Positions 39,835 through 44,879 of a stretch of 64,000 nt of DNA are shown here, piece by piece (the first letter of the stretch is position 1; every line of letters begins with the position of its first letter). This stretch comes from Methanospirillum hungatei JF-1 (lineage in GTDB: Archaea; Halobacteriota; Methanomicrobia; Methanomicrobiales; Methanospirillaceae), in NCBI RefSeq assembly GCF_000013445.1, contig NC_007796.1, positions 2,020,936 to 2,084,935 of the forward strand. Direction: 5' to 3'. The position numbers and the translations under genes were made by a program. Under the pieces are notes generated by a model. That model made no database searches and was not told the origin of the DNA. It saw nothing but the letters and a program-made list of their open reading frames with translations.

Positions 39835-40449
39835 CTATTCTACCTTCAAAGGTCGGCCAGGATCGACAACCTCAAGCTGTGCGGTTGACATCCGGTAATA
39901 GAGTCCGACCACCCTGAGCTTTCCTGCATCTTCGGCGTCCTTGACCACGCTGTAGGTGCGGAGATGTGCAAGCTGGAGTTTCACATTCTCAATCTCTAGT
40001 TCTGACTGCCATTTCCTGGCCTCTTCAGGATCGGTTGGTTTTTCTCCCTTCTTTTCAACGGTATCCAGAGCCGTATGAGCATGTCTGAGCCATCCTGGGA
40101 TCAGAACATCATCACCGCTCTTCTTACTGGCAAGTGCTTTCATGGCACCACACTCTTCATGACCGCACACAACCAGCGTGTTTATCTTCAGATGGCGAAT
40201 CCCGTACTCCAGAAATGTCCCGACATTCCAGTCTCCGGGGGGGACGATATTCCCAATGTTCCGGTGGACAAAGATCTCTCCTGGCTTTGCATGACAAGTG
40301 ATCTCTGGTGCGACTCTAGAGTCACAGCACCCGATCATCATGACATGCGGGTTCTGCCCCTTGAGAAGGGCTTTGTAATACTCAATATTCTCTGCGTATT
40401 CATTCTCTACGAAGGTCTGATTCCCTTCCATTAACTTTTCAATTCCCAT
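39835..40449 (-). CDS. beta-class carbonic anhydrase
   Basis: The enzyme interconverts CO2 and bicarbonate, useful for supplying CO2 to methanogenesis. Zinc ligands and catalytic pair are visible: MIGCCDSRVAPE (Cys and the Asp-Arg dyad), and VVCGHEECGAMKAL (His and Cys). NIGNIVPPG and the following EYGIRHLKI are typical of the family. I chose ATG 40449, which has GGGAGATA upstream and gives the usual start MGIEKLMEGNQTF; the in-frame ATG at 40506 adds a 19-residue non-conserved extension. Confidence 0.92.
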   Translation of the reverse strand: MGIEKLMEGNQTFVENEYAENIEYYKALLKGQNPHVMMIGCCDSRVAPEITCHAKPGEIFVHRNIGNIVPPGDWNVGTFLEYGIRHLKINTLVVCGHEECGAMKALASKKSGDDVLIPGWLRHAHTALDTVEKKGEKPTDPEEARKWQSELEIENVKLQLAHLRTYSVVKDAEDAGKLRVVGLYYRMSTAQLEVVDPGRPLKVE

Positions 40450-40581
40450 GTTATCTCCCAGGGTCCTTATCACATAAGGATTACAGATCGTGAACTGAAG
40501 AGCCAATATACATTACGATTTAATCCGGAGACCGGGTGATAAACCGAAAGATTGAAAAAGGTTATTACCTGATTAAACCAC

Positions 40582-41394
40582 ATGGAGGAAGCAACCCTGC
40601 AGGCAGTGAAACGGGCAATGCCCGGTCACGGAAGAGCCCGCATTCATGAAAAACTCCTTTCATTCCTCGGTGTCGAGGATCAGTCAGAGGTGGAAGTGAG
40701 CACAGATGCAGGGGCAACCCTTACTCTGACCATCTTTGCAGATGCCATGGTAGACGAGGGAACGATACGAATCAGCGGAGAGGATCTGAAAAAGCTCAAT
40801 ATTCCGGATGGCGGGAAGGTCCATGTAACCAGGAAGATTCCGCTTGAGGAGAGAATTCGGACTGCCGCTGAATCCGCTGCCGGGCAGATACGGGGAGGAG
40901 CACAGGAGATCGGATCAAAACTCTCTGAAACTGCAGACAAATTACAGAAGGGAGCAGCAGATACCGCAGGACAGATCAGCACAAAAGCAAAGGAAATAAC
41001 TGAAAAGGTGAAAGAGGACACAAAACCCATCGGAGAAAAAGTCAGCAAAGCAGCAAAGAGTTCGGCAGAAGCCATCAGGGACAAGATACCCATCGGAAAA
41101 CTCAGCCCGGAGATTGAGAAGGGATTATCTGCCATAAGTCAGGAGGAGGCAAAGGCGATCAGAAGTGCCCTGACCGGCATAGAGGGCGTCAGCGCGGCAG
41201 TCCCGGTACGGTTTGCAGCAGGCCGATCCCTTGGCAACCTCACAATACCGCCGGAAATTACACTCGTAACCGTCCAGCGGAAAGATAAGGTCCTGGGACT
41301 TGACAGAGACATCATCCTAAAAGAGAATGATATCGTATATTTCTCCGGACCTTCTGACGCCGTCGGATTTGTTACCAGAATGCTGGAGGGATAA
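40582..41394 (+). CDS. protein with RCK_C-like C-terminal domain and amphipathic helical middle
   Basis: The 270 residues divide into three parts. A beta-rich N-terminal domain (1-85) is followed by a long Ala/Lys/Glu-rich helical region (90-175) with apolipoprotein/LEA-like 11-mers such as QIRGGAQEIGSKLSETADKL. The C-terminal domain (205-270) reads GRSLGNLTIPPEITLVTVQR and DIILKENDIVYFSGP, typical of the RCK_C (TrkA-C) ligand-binding domain of K+ channels. There is no membrane segment. It heads a six-gene operon of small, largely coiled-coil proteins. A function in ion-channel control or envelope structure is conceivable but unsupported by more than the domain. Confidence 0.65.
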   Translation: MEEATLQAVKRAMPGHGRARIHEKLLSFLGVEDQSEVEVSTDAGATLTLTIFADAMVDEGTIRISGEDLKKLNIPDGGKVHVTRKIPLEERIRTAAESAAGQIRGGAQEIGSKLSETADKLQKGAADTAGQISTKAKEITEKVKEDTKPIGEKVSKAAKSSAEAIRDKIPIGKLSPEIEKGLSAISQEEAKAIRSALTGIEGVSAAVPVRFAAGRSLGNLTIPPEITLVTVQRKDKVLGLDRDIILKENDIVYFSGPSDAVGFVTRMLEG

Positions 41395-41396
41395 GC

Positions 41397-41774
41397 TTGG
41401 AGATCTCCTTTTCCCAGGATGGTCTTATAGGAATTGCAGTCCTTCTTGTCATCGTTATCATGATATACCTGATCATCAGGGAGATCAGACTGATGCGGAC
41501 CAATACCAGGAAACTGGAGCTGGAACTGGAACGCGATAAGCTCCAGATATTAAAACAGGATACCGCAGCTTCAGTCCAGCCGGCCTTACGACTGACAACA
41601 GATCAGATATCAGCACTCAAAGAGATTGAAGAATCGAACATCGCCCTTGAAACCGAGATCTTCATGAAACAGAAGACTATCGAGGGCAGACTCAAGCGTC
41701 TTGAAAATTATGTCAAGCGTGAAAAACTTGACCTGATGCTGGACCGGATTGATTCAGAGGAAAAAAAGATTTAG
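41397..41774 (+). CDS. membrane-anchored coiled-coil protein
   Basis: This 125-residue protein has one N-terminal membrane helix (GIAVLLVIVIMIYLIIREI, about 12-30) followed by charged helices with heptad character (RKLELELERDKLQILKQD, EIFMKQKTIEGRLKRLENYV). The start is TTG at 41397, two bases after the previous stop and preceded by GGAGGGATAA. I do not recognise a family. It appears to be co-transcribed with the RCK_C-like gene and with the three small coiled-coil genes that follow. Confidence 0.6.
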   Translation: MEISFSQDGLIGIAVLLVIVIMIYLIIREIRLMRTNTRKLELELERDKLQILKQDTAASVQPALRLTTDQISALKEIEESNIALETEIFMKQKTIEGRLKRLENYVKREKLDLMLDRIDSEEKKI

Positions 41775-41783
41775 GTGAGAGGA

Positions 41784-42080
41784 ATGTTTGAAACATCTGG
41801 GAGCACACGAAAATTCTTTGATAACCTGAGCAGTTTTGAAACACGAGCCACATCTCAGGTCCCTACCTTTGACCGGACACTGGACTCCTACTTTGATCGG
41901 AATTTTGAAGCCATTGTTGAAGAATGGGGGCTTATCACCGAGGCAGACCTGCATGAATATGCACGGCGGCTTGAATTTCTCAGCTATGAGGTCGGACGAC
42001 TCTATGCCATGAAAGATTTATTCAAAAGCCGGGCAGATTCCATTGAAAAGGCCATAGAGGAACTGGAGGCGAAGAAATGA
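41784..42080 (+). CDS. small coiled-coil protein, family member 1
   Basis: About 99 residues, soluble. It contains SYFDRNFEAIVEEWGLIT followed by a helical tail (FLSYEVGRLYAMKDLFKSRA). The same core (Y-[LF]-D-R-x-[FM]-x-x-[IL]-[IV]-E-[ED]-[WY]) recurs in the next two genes, so the three are paralogues. I chose ATG 41784, which follows GGTGAGAGGA, over GTG 41775. Its stop overlaps the next start as ATGA. Function unknown. Confidence 0.6.
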   Translation: MFETSGSTRKFFDNLSSFETRATSQVPTFDRTLDSYFDRNFEAIVEEWGLITEADLHEYARRLEFLSYEVGRLYAMKDLFKSRADSIEKAIEELEAKK

Positions 42081-42298
42081 GCATGGATAAGTACCTGAAC
42101 GCCTATCTCGACCGGCGGATGAAACTCATCATTGAGGACTGGCAGCTTGCAACTACCGCTGATATCAGGGAACTATCACAACGGTTCAGACAGGTCAAAC
42201 AAGAGGCAGAGAGTCTGAAATCGTTTGAACGTGAATCAAAGGATCGGATGGATCGGATGGAAGAGCGGATACGGACCCTCAGGAGCCGGATGAAATGA
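42077..42298 (+). CDS. small coiled-coil protein, family member 2
   Basis: A 73-residue paralogue of its neighbours, with the core AYLDRRMKLIIEDWQLAT at the N-terminus and a strongly charged helix to the end (ERESKDRMDRMEERIRTL). It has neither membrane segment nor Cys. ATGA overlaps link it to both flanking genes, so the three are made together. Probably a component of an oligomeric structure; function unknown. Confidence 0.6.
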   Translation: MSMDKYLNAYLDRRMKLIIEDWQLATTADIRELSQRFRQVKQEAESLKSFERESKDRMDRMEERIRTLRSRMK

Positions 42299-42639
42299 CA
42301 CTCATTGAGATACTCCTGATCATCCTCATCGTTCTCATCATCCTCTTCCTGCTGTTCTGGTTCTTCCAGGGAACCACCGGAAGAATATCTCTTCGCAGAC
42401 CGGTTGAAAGCAGGGTGGATGAGTACCTGGACCGGCGGTTTGCCCAGCTTGTTGAAGACTATGGTGTTATCCGCAGACCTAAACTGAACCGGTTCAAGGA
42501 AGAACGGGGATCTGCTCTTGAGAATGATGCACAAAAGATCGCCGAGCTGAAACAGTTTGAAAGTGAGTTCTCACAAAACCTCTCTCTGCTTGAGGCACGA
42601 CTTGATGCACTGGAAAGATCATTTGATTCGAAGAAGTAA
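42295..42639 (+). CDS. membrane-anchored coiled-coil protein, family member 3
   Basis: The 114-residue protein begins with a strong membrane helix (LIEILLIILIVLIILFLLFWFF) and then repeats the family core as EYLDRRFAQLVEDYGVI. A coiled-coil tail follows (QFESEFSQNLSLLEARLDAL). It is the membrane-bound member of the three paralogues and may anchor the soluble two. It overlaps the previous gene as ATGA. Function unknown. Confidence 0.6.
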   Translation: MTLIEILLIILIVLIILFLLFWFFQGTTGRISLRRPVESRVDEYLDRRFAQLVEDYGVIRRPKLNRFKEERGSALENDAQKIAELKQFESEFSQNLSLLEARLDALERSFDSKK

Positions 42640-42661
42640 GGACACTCAATCATCAGGGGGC

Positions 42662-42973
42662 ATGTTTCAGGCTCTTAAAAACCAGGTACCCCGGGTACGA
42701 AAAGAAAATGAACCCCCGACCCGGGATCCCGAATCCTTTTCACGGTATGTCTGTGATCTCTGTCACAGCTCCGGCTCTCTGTCAGGACTTCGTCAGTGTG
42801 TTATCTGTGGCAGATGGGGATGCAGTTCCTGTTGGCAGGATGAGTATTACCTCTGTAAATCATGTGGCGGGATCATGAACCTGCTCCTCCTTGAGCTGCC
42901 GGTCCGCGATACTCCGGATGAACCAGATATCAAAACCGAAAAGCGGGATGAACTGACCGAAGACACCCCCTGA
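42662..42973 (+). CDS. small zinc-binding protein
   Basis: About 103 residues with a double zinc-site of FYVE/RING-like spacing: YVCDLCHSSGSLSGLRQC, VICGRWGCSSCW and YLCKSCGG give four CxxC pairs. The ends are charged and probably disordered. ATG 42662 is chosen because it follows an AGGGGG ribosome-binding site and lies just after the previous stop. It is the last gene of the operon and could be its protein- or nucleic-acid-binding adaptor. Confidence 0.6.
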   Translation: MFQALKNQVPRVRKENEPPTRDPESFSRYVCDLCHSSGSLSGLRQCVICGRWGCSSCWQDEYYLCKSCGGIMNLLLLELPVRDTPDEPDIKTEKRDELTEDTP

Positions 42974-43050: not shown

Positions 43051-43617
43051 GTGAAAAGTATAAAGATACCATCCCTTATCTCATCGGTCGTCCAGAATGC
43101 ATTATCCGGACTGGAAGGGATGGAGTTTACCCTCCTTGACCGGTGTCCTCACTGCGGAGGGGAGGTCAGGTACCACGACAACCGGAAGAAACGGTTTGCA
43201 ACCATACTCATTGATGATGAGAAGCAGATAATCAATGTCATCGTCACCAGGTATTACTGTAAATCATGCGGACGGCTCTGTTATGCACTGGCCCCGTTTT
43301 ATCCGAATACCAAGTTTGGATCCCCGGTCATCGATCTCTGCATGACGGTGGCACGGATCCATCCTTATAACCATAGTGCACGAATCCTTCAGGAGATGGG
43401 AGTTGTCGTTGACCGGGGGACCATCCGGAATTTCTTCTCCCGTGATATCCCGGCGGTCAGTTATGCAAAAATATACGGCCTGCCAATACCGCTCTCCATA
43501 TTTCACCTGTCAGATCTCTCTTCCAGACGCAGGCAGTCTCGACAGGTCACCGAGGAGGATGTCCTCAGGGCCTGCGGATTCCCATCCACAAAAGATCTCT
43601 TTCACAAGACGCCCTGA
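43051..43617 (+). CDS. zinc-ribbon, transposase-N-terminus-like protein (paralogue B)
   Basis: This 188-residue paralogue of the gene at 23417-24022 shares its domain order. The zinc ribbon CPHCGG..YYCKSCG is followed by LCYALAPFYPNTKFGSPVIDLC and GVVVDRGTIRNFF. It lacks the transposase catalytic domain. The start is GTG at 43051. Its end overlaps the convergent second fdhB by 16 bases. Because both copies sit next to methanogenesis genes (ftr and fdh), they may be a lineage-specific regulator family; this is inference. Confidence 0.62.
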   Translation: MKSIKIPSLISSVVQNALSGLEGMEFTLLDRCPHCGGEVRYHDNRKKRFATILIDDEKQIINVIVTRYYCKSCGRLCYALAPFYPNTKFGSPVIDLCMTVARIHPYNHSARILQEMGVVVDRGTIRNFFSRDIPAVSYAKIYGLPIPLSIFHLSDLSSRRRQSRQVTEEDVLRACGFPSTKDLFHKTP

Positions 43618-44879
43618 TTATCCCCCGATTCATCTGCCGCAGGAACCTTCTGACTGAACAGACGAATCATCTCCTGGTAATTATTCCCATAGTAATGTTC
43701 CCATTCTTCATGCTGATTCACCTTTGCAAGGATGGGTTTTCCTTCAGGCCTGCCAGGATGATATCCGAACATCTGCTCAAGTTCTGCCTGCAGGGCATGC
43801 ATCATCAGTGAGACCGGAATATCCATGGCACACCGGTCCTGACACTGTCCACAATTCACACAGGAGTCGGCGATATGGGAGAACCGGATCAGATGAAACA
43901 TCAACGGAGGCGGGACTTCACCAGGCCTGACCAGCCAGGGTTTTTTTGTCTGACAATCCTGACAGAAACAGAACGGACAGGCCTTCGAACACTGGTAACA
44001 TTTAATGCACCGGTTTGTCTCTTCCATGATCCAGGTCAGCCGCCCGATACCGGTCCCGACTTTTGCAAACATCGCTTTGCGGTTCTTCTCTGATATCGTC
44101 AGCATCGCTGCCTCAACACGGGATCGTGCCTCAATACCCTTCAGGTCAGCAGGGACTATGGTCACAAATCCGTCTTTTCTTGCCTGATCCAGAAATGCCA
44201 GCCCTTTTTTACTGCACACCTCAATAAAGGTTGCCTGATCGGAGTATTCACCTAACAGCCCCCAGGTTCCACAGACAACGTCACATTGGCGGGGAATCGG
44301 GGTATCACATCTCCTGCATGAATCACGTCTGCCAAACCCGTGCTCCTCAATTATCTCCAAAGGAAATTCATGGACTACGTCACCAGACCTGATAACTACC
44401 CGGCCATTCCTGACACAAAAAGAATCAACATGGTCCGGATTCAGATCACAGACCTCCCTGATAAATGCCCTGGTTTGTATGGGGGAAAATGTCCCGCTGC
44501 AATTGAGTCCGATAAGATAGAGATCGTCCCGGTCAAGTATATTCCGCTTGACCAGTTCCACGATGACCTTTGCATCACACCCCTTGACAACCGCAGCAAT
44601 CTTCATCCCAGGGGTTGCCTGCACGGCACTGACAACCCAGTCTGCGGTCAGAATACTCCCACAGAACAAAGATCCGGAACATGCAGGGATCTTTTCCGGA
44701 TCAGTTATGATGACGGGCCGTGGATCATAGATATCCTCTCCCATCTGCAGTGCACAGACCGCATCAACGGTGCCTGACGAAAGCAGGGACATAAGCAGGC
44801 CGGTCACCACCCCTCCGGATGCTGCGTGTTCCCTGATTGAATCAAACGGAGACCGGCCGTACCACATCTGACCATTCAT
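43602..44879 (-). CDS. fdhB: formate dehydrogenase beta subunit, second copy
   Basis: The 425-residue paralogue of the FdhB at 28420 has the same landmarks. KGCDAKVIVEL and GLNCSGTFSP lie in the flavin domain, then GFGRRDSCRRCDTPIPRQCD. Two [4Fe-4S] motifs follow, CIKCYQCSKACPFCFC and CVNCGQCQDRCAMDI. The C-terminal tail is more divergent. It follows the second fdhA with an ATGA overlap. The two fdhAB pairs are clearly diverged, so they may serve different partners or growth conditions. Confidence 0.92.
   Translation of the reverse strand: MNGQMWYGRSPFDSIREHAASGGVVTGLLMSLLSSGTVDAVCALQMGEDIYDPRPVIITDPEKIPACSGSLFCGSILTADWVVSAVQATPGMKIAAVVKGCDAKVIVELVKRNILDRDDLYLIGLNCSGTFSPIQTRAFIREVCDLNPDHVDSFCVRNGRVVIRSGDVVHEFPLEIIEEHGFGRRDSCRRCDTPIPRQCDVVCGTWGLLGEYSDQATFIEVCSKKGLAFLDQARKDGFVTIVPADLKGIEARSRVEAAMLTISEKNRKAMFAKVGTGIGRLTWIMEETNRCIKCYQCSKACPFCFCQDCQTKKPWLVRPGEVPPPLMFHLIRFSHIADSCVNCGQCQDRCAMDIPVSLMMHALQAELEQMFGYHPGRPEGKPILAKVNQHEEWEHYYGNNYQEMIRLFSQKVPAADESGDNQGVL

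Follow-up and report, generated by a model that had tools for sequence, protein, structure and literature searches.

A conserved six-gene operon of Methanospirillum hungatei and related archaea as a candidate membrane scaffold

Several described systems come close to parts of the locus analysed here. PspA/ESCRT-III proteins and flotillins are peripheral coiled-coil membrane scaffolds, ZipA and EzrA are N-out, single-pass proteins with a cytoplasmic coiled coil, and the RhxxhE motif favours trimeric coiled coils. E3 RING fingers usually carry a linchpin Arg after the last zinc ligand; prokaryotic RING fingers were reportedly surveyed by Burroughs et al. (2011, Mol BioSyst), which is said to be the source of the Pfam family PF14445 (Prok-RING_2). 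The membrane lipids of archaea are phytanyl-based, and the ways in which archaea sense or shape such phytanyl-ether membranes are poorly understood; the operon described here is a small, self-contained and testable candidate, present in M. hungatei JF-1, a type strain with a sequenced genome. The weak 11-mer helix of perilipin-4 ignores most of the bilayers tested and binds and folds on diphytanoyl ones, which has been explained by packing defects arising from the methyl branches (PMC5889406).

The window is a stretch of 64,000 nucleotides (positions 2,020,936-2,084,935) of the M. hungatei JF-1 genome, a single contig of 3,544,738 bases. All six genes, designated A to F, are present and complete at 40582-42973 on the + strand (Table 1), as an earlier note made from the DNA letters had read them, and they constitute one operon. 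ATGA overlaps are limited to the C/D and D/E junctions, with short gaps at A/B and B/C, and GGTGAGAG lies upstream of the ATG of gene C. Gene F starts either at ATG 42605, with a 35 nt overlap with E, or at ATG 42662. The earlier note had taken overlapping starts as a sign of one complex; the two overlaps are real, but they show co-translation and not complex formation, and we infer from the sequences that the six proteins may form one complex. The convergent genes at 43602-46939 look like one of the formate dehydrogenase pairs of M. hungatei JF-1, Mhun_1832-1833 (PMC4704411), in which case A to F would, by counting, be Mhun_1825-1830.

Table 1. Coordinates of the six genes and their features, in positions of the window
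Feature	Position	Strand	Description and basis
Gene A	40582..41394	+	270 aa; double-psi barrel, amphipathic helices and RCK_C; first gene in every untruncated operon copy
A residues 1-85	40582..40836	+	Double-psi beta barrel resembling the Nn subdomain of Cdc48/VAT N-domains; predicted structure, Foldseek
A residues 88-170	40843..41091	+	Weakly hydrophobic 3-11 (11-residue-periodic) amphipathic helix; moment, autocorrelation, PDB profile matches
A residues 185-270	41134..41391	+	RCK_C / TrkA_C domain, optional, one clade; PF02080, PDB TrkA, pLDDT
Gene B	41397..41774	+	125 aa, TTG start; predicted single-pass membrane protein, N-out, its coiled coil in the cytoplasm; RhxxhE motif
B transmembrane helix (approximate)	41424..41480	+	Hydropathy and flank charge, 74 homologues
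Gene C	41784..42080	+	98 aa, soluble paralogue of D and E; no hydrophobic segment
C core YFDRNFEAIVEEW	41889..41927	+	Sequence
Gene D	42077..42298	+	73 aa; soluble, paralogous to C and E; overlaps C by ATGA
D core YLDRRMKLIIEDW	42104..42142	+	Sequence
Gene E	42295..42639	+	114 aa; paralogous to C and D, predicted single-pass membrane protein, N-out; overlaps D by ATGA
E transmembrane helix (approximate)	42301..42369	+	Hydropathy and flank charge, 77 homologues
E core YLDRRFAQLVEDY	42424..42462	+	Sequence
Gene F	42605..42973	+	Prok-RING_2 protein with four Cys pairs (two predicted zinc sites); PF14445

A scan of the genomes of 84,980 species based on F yielded 61 loci. All 54 untruncated loci carry A-B-C-D-E-F in one order and on one strand, and the remaining 7 are cut by a contig end. 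Among 20 loci taken from whole genomes, those on contigs of sufficient length have the six genes in succession, with order and strand unchanged; the few gaps between called genes in this set result from start choice or a contig end. Within the class, 90 of 232 genomes have a PF14445 match that exceeds the cut-off, including 12 of 12 in the genus of M. hungatei, many in its family and some in two other families. Across the phylum, a profile of E matched 32 of 394 genomes, and exactly these 32 have a strong PF14445 match. Flanking genes are common only within genera and differ between them. The fixed A-F block, the co-occurrence of E and F and the changing flanks together identify the six-gene block as the unit of selection. 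The earlier note had claimed a six-gene operon and proposed looking for it in other Methanomicrobiales: order and linkage are kept across that order, with very tight linkage in place of a scattered, unlinked distribution. The named loci come mainly from Methanospirillum, Methanoregula and Methanolinea, and half of the order is without the operon, which is therefore not essential to methanogens. Co-variation of archaellin with the operon was uninformative, archaellin being present in 57 of 61 relatives. Recurrent flanks in the neighbour analysis were only of genus level, and the two largest of its clusters are shadows of the operon on the antisense strand.

Profile comparisons by hhalign link C to D (E=3e-16, 98.7%), D to E (E=1e-15, 98.6%) and C to E (E=7e-13, 97.8%), a core similarity far above chance by which these sequences qualify as true paralogues. 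The core that the earlier note had seen shared by the genes at 41784, 42077 and 42295 is exact. B was tried as a fourth paralogue and rejected, since its profile aligned with that of E at just 62% over 23 columns. The three paralogues never occur singly, and they illustrate cleanly how duplication can yield a hetero-oligomer, here a probably obligate one. The RhxxhE motif is found in 75 of 75 homologues of B, 71 of 77 of D and 76 of 77 of E, against about 3 expected in each, the homologues not being independent of one another; in C it occurs in 5 of 75 homologues, the chance level. The coiled coils of C and D have a moment peak at 104 degrees, a heptad signal, and those of B and E gave no clean heptad peak in the periodicity analysis. 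PDB profile searches with D and E returned generic coiled coils.

The membrane segments of B and E are strongly hydrophobic, with a mean best 19-mer hydropathy of 2.9 over 74 homologues of B and 3.1 over 77 homologues of E. Mean flank charge rises from -1.6 before the helix to +2.5 after it in B, and from -0.6 to +2.0 in E, and the C-terminal flank is the more positive one in every homologue (74/74 and 77/77). A positive flank after the helix indicates that B and E are N-out and C-in, so that their coiled coils should be cytoplasmic and the assembly should, as predicted from these sequences, lie on the cytoplasmic side. E is thus the one paralogue with a membrane helix and B the separate membrane coiled-coil protein, with a single N-terminal membrane helix and outside the C/D/E family, both as earlier proposed. 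No membrane or signal-like segment appeared in A, C, D or F in the hydropathy analysis.

The earlier note had described A as an RCK_C-like protein with an amphipathic middle. Both elements are there, but the N-terminal double-psi barrel had been missed, and RCK_C does not belong to the core of the protein. The barrel is found in all A orthologues and is modelled with pLDDT >90 across most of residues 1-80; its best Foldseek match is 7dg9, the DPBB of an Aeropyrum VCP-like ATPase (TM 0.81 over the target, 26% identity), with p97/Cdc48 N-domains next. Across the segment that follows, the hydrophobic moment averaged over 62 homologues peaks at 98-99 degrees per residue (0.35, against 0.10 for shuffles), a value different from that of the C and D coiled coils. 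The M. hungatei sequence has a moment of 0.41, and none of 20,000 shuffles was as high. Identity autocorrelation peaks at lags 11 and 22, with 0.25 at lag 11. The nonpolar face consists mainly of A, V, I and T, and the polar face of K and E. These features are characteristic of the 3-11 helices found in synuclein, perilipins and apolipoproteins, a likeness that implies no ancestry. Its profile matched ApoA-IV in the PDB at 4e-10 and alpha-synuclein weakly, at 0.04, and apolipoprotein matches of low-complexity Lys/Ala-rich helices may reflect composition rather than ancestry. Residues 88-170 are helical in the model with pLDDT of about 30-55; low confidence in the helix modelled alone fits a helix that would fold only on lipid.

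The RCK_C domain of A scores only marginally against PF02080 (27.1 bits, cut-off 27), matches TrkA in the PDB at 1e-6, with stand-alone RCK_C domains of KtrA-/CpaA-type proteins among its relatives, and is modelled with pLDDT >94. Among the A proteins fetched, 21 are long enough to include it and 52 are short, ending before it and often in [DE]L. The carriers group together as a single clade of the operon tree (UFBoot 98), and the Methanoregula-type branch of this midpoint-rooted tree seems to have lost the domain. RCK_C is an optional feature of A and not a core one.

What the earlier note called a double zinc-finger protein does have four Cys pairs and two predicted zinc sites, but it belongs to an already named Pfam family. 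F matches PF14445 at 119.8 bits (cut-off 22.4; E=5e-35) over the whole 56-position model. The pairs CDLC, CVIC, CSSC and CKSC are invariant or more than 90% conserved in 36 homologues, one of which is without one Cys. Across all 36 aligned sequences the position that follows the final zinc Cys holds G, N, A, S, H or Q and never Arg, and the usual linchpin of E3 RINGs is thus missing from F. The core of the F model has pLDDT >92. FYVE-type structures came first among its matches (CARP2, with a probability of 0.80 over 47 columns; melanophilin; EEA1), followed by PHD fingers, all at E>0.4, so that the model looks more FYVE/PHD-like than E3-like with no match being significant. A PDB profile match to TFIIE-alpha (0.0015) was set aside as inconsistent with eight Cys ligands.

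The operon also occurs in two genomes titled Theionarchaea, complete in one (L122) and cut at a contig end in the other (L108). McrA is absent from both, and E is absent from the other genomes of this class among the 59 sampled. A RadA gene 6 kb from the operon, on the same contig, is 70-75% identical to those of other members of the class and at most 61% identical to those of Methanomicrobiales, short fragments aside; the contig is thus judged genuine, and contamination an unlikely source of these copies. The complete copy lies inside the RCK_C clade of the operon tree (UFBoot 98), adjoining the Methanoregula branch (76). One movement of the whole block from Methanomicrobiales to Theionarchaea is the simplest reading; the direction is probable and not proven because the tree is midpoint-rooted. 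Such a transfer suggests that the six proteins suffice for a useful function outside methanogens.

The anatomy, linkage and topology of the operon are well supported, and from them, together with the domains, the paralogy, the periodicity and the charge bias, we infer what it may do. That it encodes a membrane scaffold on the cytoplasmic face is our leading reading, held at slightly less than even confidence. A single helix would anchor each of E and B, whose coiled coils would lie in the cytoplasm. C, D and E, always retained together, would form an obligate hetero-oligomer, for which a trimer is a guess, and B would join this heteromer where E anchors it. A may dock on the coiled-coil assembly and lay its 3-11 helix on the inner leaflet, where the helix would respond to the packing of the lipids, to charge or to curvature. 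The likely protein-binding head of A would be the Cdc48-N-like barrel, with RCK_C adding small-ligand control in one clade. F would act as a two-zinc FYVE/RING-like adaptor, the barrel and F both binding partners. Such a scaffold might keep the membrane organised or protected, or bring a client to it. The nearest precedent for a mechanism is the perilipin-4 helix and its preference for diphytanoyl bilayers: since archaeal membranes are built of phytanyl chains, a weak 3-11 helix would be well suited to them. A bolder and more doubtful proposal is an archaeal membrane-surveillance scaffold, in which a heteromeric membrane coiled coil, together with a Cdc48-N-like barrel and a FYVE/RING-like finger, would keep a perilipin/synuclein-type helix tuned to phytanyl packing defects on the inner leaflet, the whole having spread between distant archaea as a block.

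The predicted topology of B and E is that of ZipA and EzrA, and the main named carriers, Methanospirillum, Methanoregula and Methanolinea, include rods and filaments. Both points favour a division or shape tether, in which B and E would link a cytoskeletal filament (FtsZ or another) to the membrane and A would sense curvature, comparable to the two bacterial proteins. We consider this rather unlikely: no division family was matched above its cut-off, D reaching DivIC only at E=0.15 in Pfam; the neighbours, so far as they are readable, include no recurrent division gene; and genomes free of the operon divide normally. The MreB profile matched just DnaK-like proteins and was uninformative on the cytoskeleton.

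An ion or osmotic regulator, whose RCK_C would bind a nucleotide such as c-di-AMP so that the complex gates a transporter, would account for an RCK_C score over the Pfam cut-off and for the KtrA-/CpaA-type relatives of this domain; a DAC (c-di-AMP cyclase) domain is present in 59 of 61 relatives, and a SulP transporter or carbonic anhydrase adjoins the operon in Methanospirillum. This too is improbable, as most A proteins are without RCK_C though the remainder is unchanged, DAC is so nearly universal that it does not discriminate, and outside the genus the operon has no conserved transporter next to it.

A membrane proteostasis or ubiquitin-like module, with F as an E3 RING and the A barrel imitating or recruiting a Cdc48 N-domain, draws on the Pfam placement of F and on the closeness of the barrel to Cdc48/p97 N-domains. 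We regard it as very unlikely. E2 (PF00179) was matched in 0 of 61 relatives, although the control genomes gave no match either; no protease, E1 or ubiquitin-like gene was seen to recur nearby in the neighbour analysis; and the E3 reading of F is weakened by the absent linchpin Arg and by a model nearest to FYVE/PHD folds, none significantly. Machinery of the cell envelope or sheath, where the earlier note had suggested looking for these proteins and to which membrane-anchored B and E in a sheathed Methanospirillum might seem to belong, was rejected as highly improbable on topology and distribution, for the soluble parts of B and E are predicted to lie in the cytoplasm, signal-like segments are absent from A, C, D and F, the operon occurs in Methanoregula- and Methanolinea-type genomes not known to us as sheathed (to our knowledge, and from what the sheath papers describe, the only sheathed genera are Methanospirillum and Methanothrix), and none of the six genes is named in the main texts searched of papers on the sheath and the S-layer. 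A role in defence was likewise set aside: PADLOC gives just ZorA helix-tail scores, and no viral contig carried F.

Compared with described systems, the locus shares parts with several. F is a full match to Prok-RING_2, a family that names one domain and whose definition does not extend to the six-gene unit. With alpha-synuclein, perilipins, apolipoproteins and group 3 LEA proteins, the helix of A shares the 11-residue periodicity, the 98-99 degree moment, a weakly hydrophobic face with few large hydrophobics and a Lys-rich polar face. It differs from them in being archaeal and about 80 residues long, placed between two globular domains or at the C terminus; the likeness is likely convergent, and lipid binding and folding are predicted from it. 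A has the double-psi barrel of the Nn half of Cdc48/p97/VAT N-domains but not their Nc subdomain, and the AAA+ ATPase is absent from A and from the operon. The RCK_C / TrkA_C regulators of K+ channels and transporters share with A a domain that is optional within its family, and neither A nor the operon contains an RCK_N domain, K+ channel or transporter. The likeness to PspA/ESCRT-III and flotillin-type scaffolds is just the general idea of a peripheral coiled-coil membrane scaffold: none of the six proteins matched these families in Pfam or NCBIfam, with no PspA or Snf7 match at E<=5. ZorA of Zorya is reached only by the low-complexity A helices, which score weakly against its tail (PADLOC/NCBIfam, best E=2e-5); B to F have no Zorya score, and the operon is without the MotA/ExbB channel, ZorB and ZorC-E. 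In the families and literature searched, which did not include the 2011 survey of prokaryotic RINGs, where the neighbourhood may be mentioned, no text describes PF14445 or the six-gene set, in line with the earlier note, whose author knew of no such system. With its domain types known and F named in Pfam, the set has the defining features of none of the known systems compared here. New here are the barrel and 3-11 helix of A, the optionality of RCK_C, the topology of B and E, the Theionarchaea copies and the FYVE/PHD-like model of F. In one small archaeal block the operon brings together 3-11 helices, a Cdc48-N barrel and a FYVE/RING-like finger, all of which eukaryotes employ in membrane or Cdc48 biology, without their known partners.

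Neighbouring genes of the operon were compared across loci. The transposase-type zinc-ribbon gene (188 aa) lies 70-88 nt 3' of F, the Prok-RING_2 gene that ends the operon, only in ten Methanospirillum-type loci, and does not belong to the conserved operon. On the 5' side of A, nine Methanospirillum-type loci have a divergently transcribed beta-carbonic anhydrase gene, and three other loci (L063, L064 and L068) encode a SulP-type transporter upstream of the operon and on its strand; this comparison gave no link of either gene to the operon past genus level. Each of the two proteins acts on small anions.

Flanking genes and DAC-domain frames (window coordinates, or surveyed genome:contig:position)
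Feature	Position	Strand	Remarks
Beta-carbonic anhydrase	39835-40506	-	divergent from operon
Transposase-type zinc-ribbon protein, 188 aa	43051-43617	+	ISL3/IS66, DUF6431-like
DAC-domain frames	G000:C1:2010559 and 1378966		and relatives

Two operon copies or fragments were found in one genome (G026; contigs C181, C343 and C233, loci L150-L152). Two 84-aa ORFs of another genome (G010, contigs C23 and C24), with 53-56% identity to A over residues 4-54 only, may be barrel-only paralogues of A, and 37 of the 52 short A proteins (A orthologues, e.g. L073-L077 and L107) end in [DE]L, a conserved C-terminal tail. Stand-alone Prok-RING_2-like proteins of 58-91 aa, away from any A-F-type operon, were matched weakly (E to 4e-7) in genomes of the phylum (G285, G295, G313, G341, G345, G359 and others, genus g73).

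Two proteins carrying a DAC (c-di-AMP cyclase) domain are encoded in many genomes of the window's family; their frames span about 430-580 codons, whereas other families of the same order commonly have a single, shorter DAC frame of 270-300 codons.
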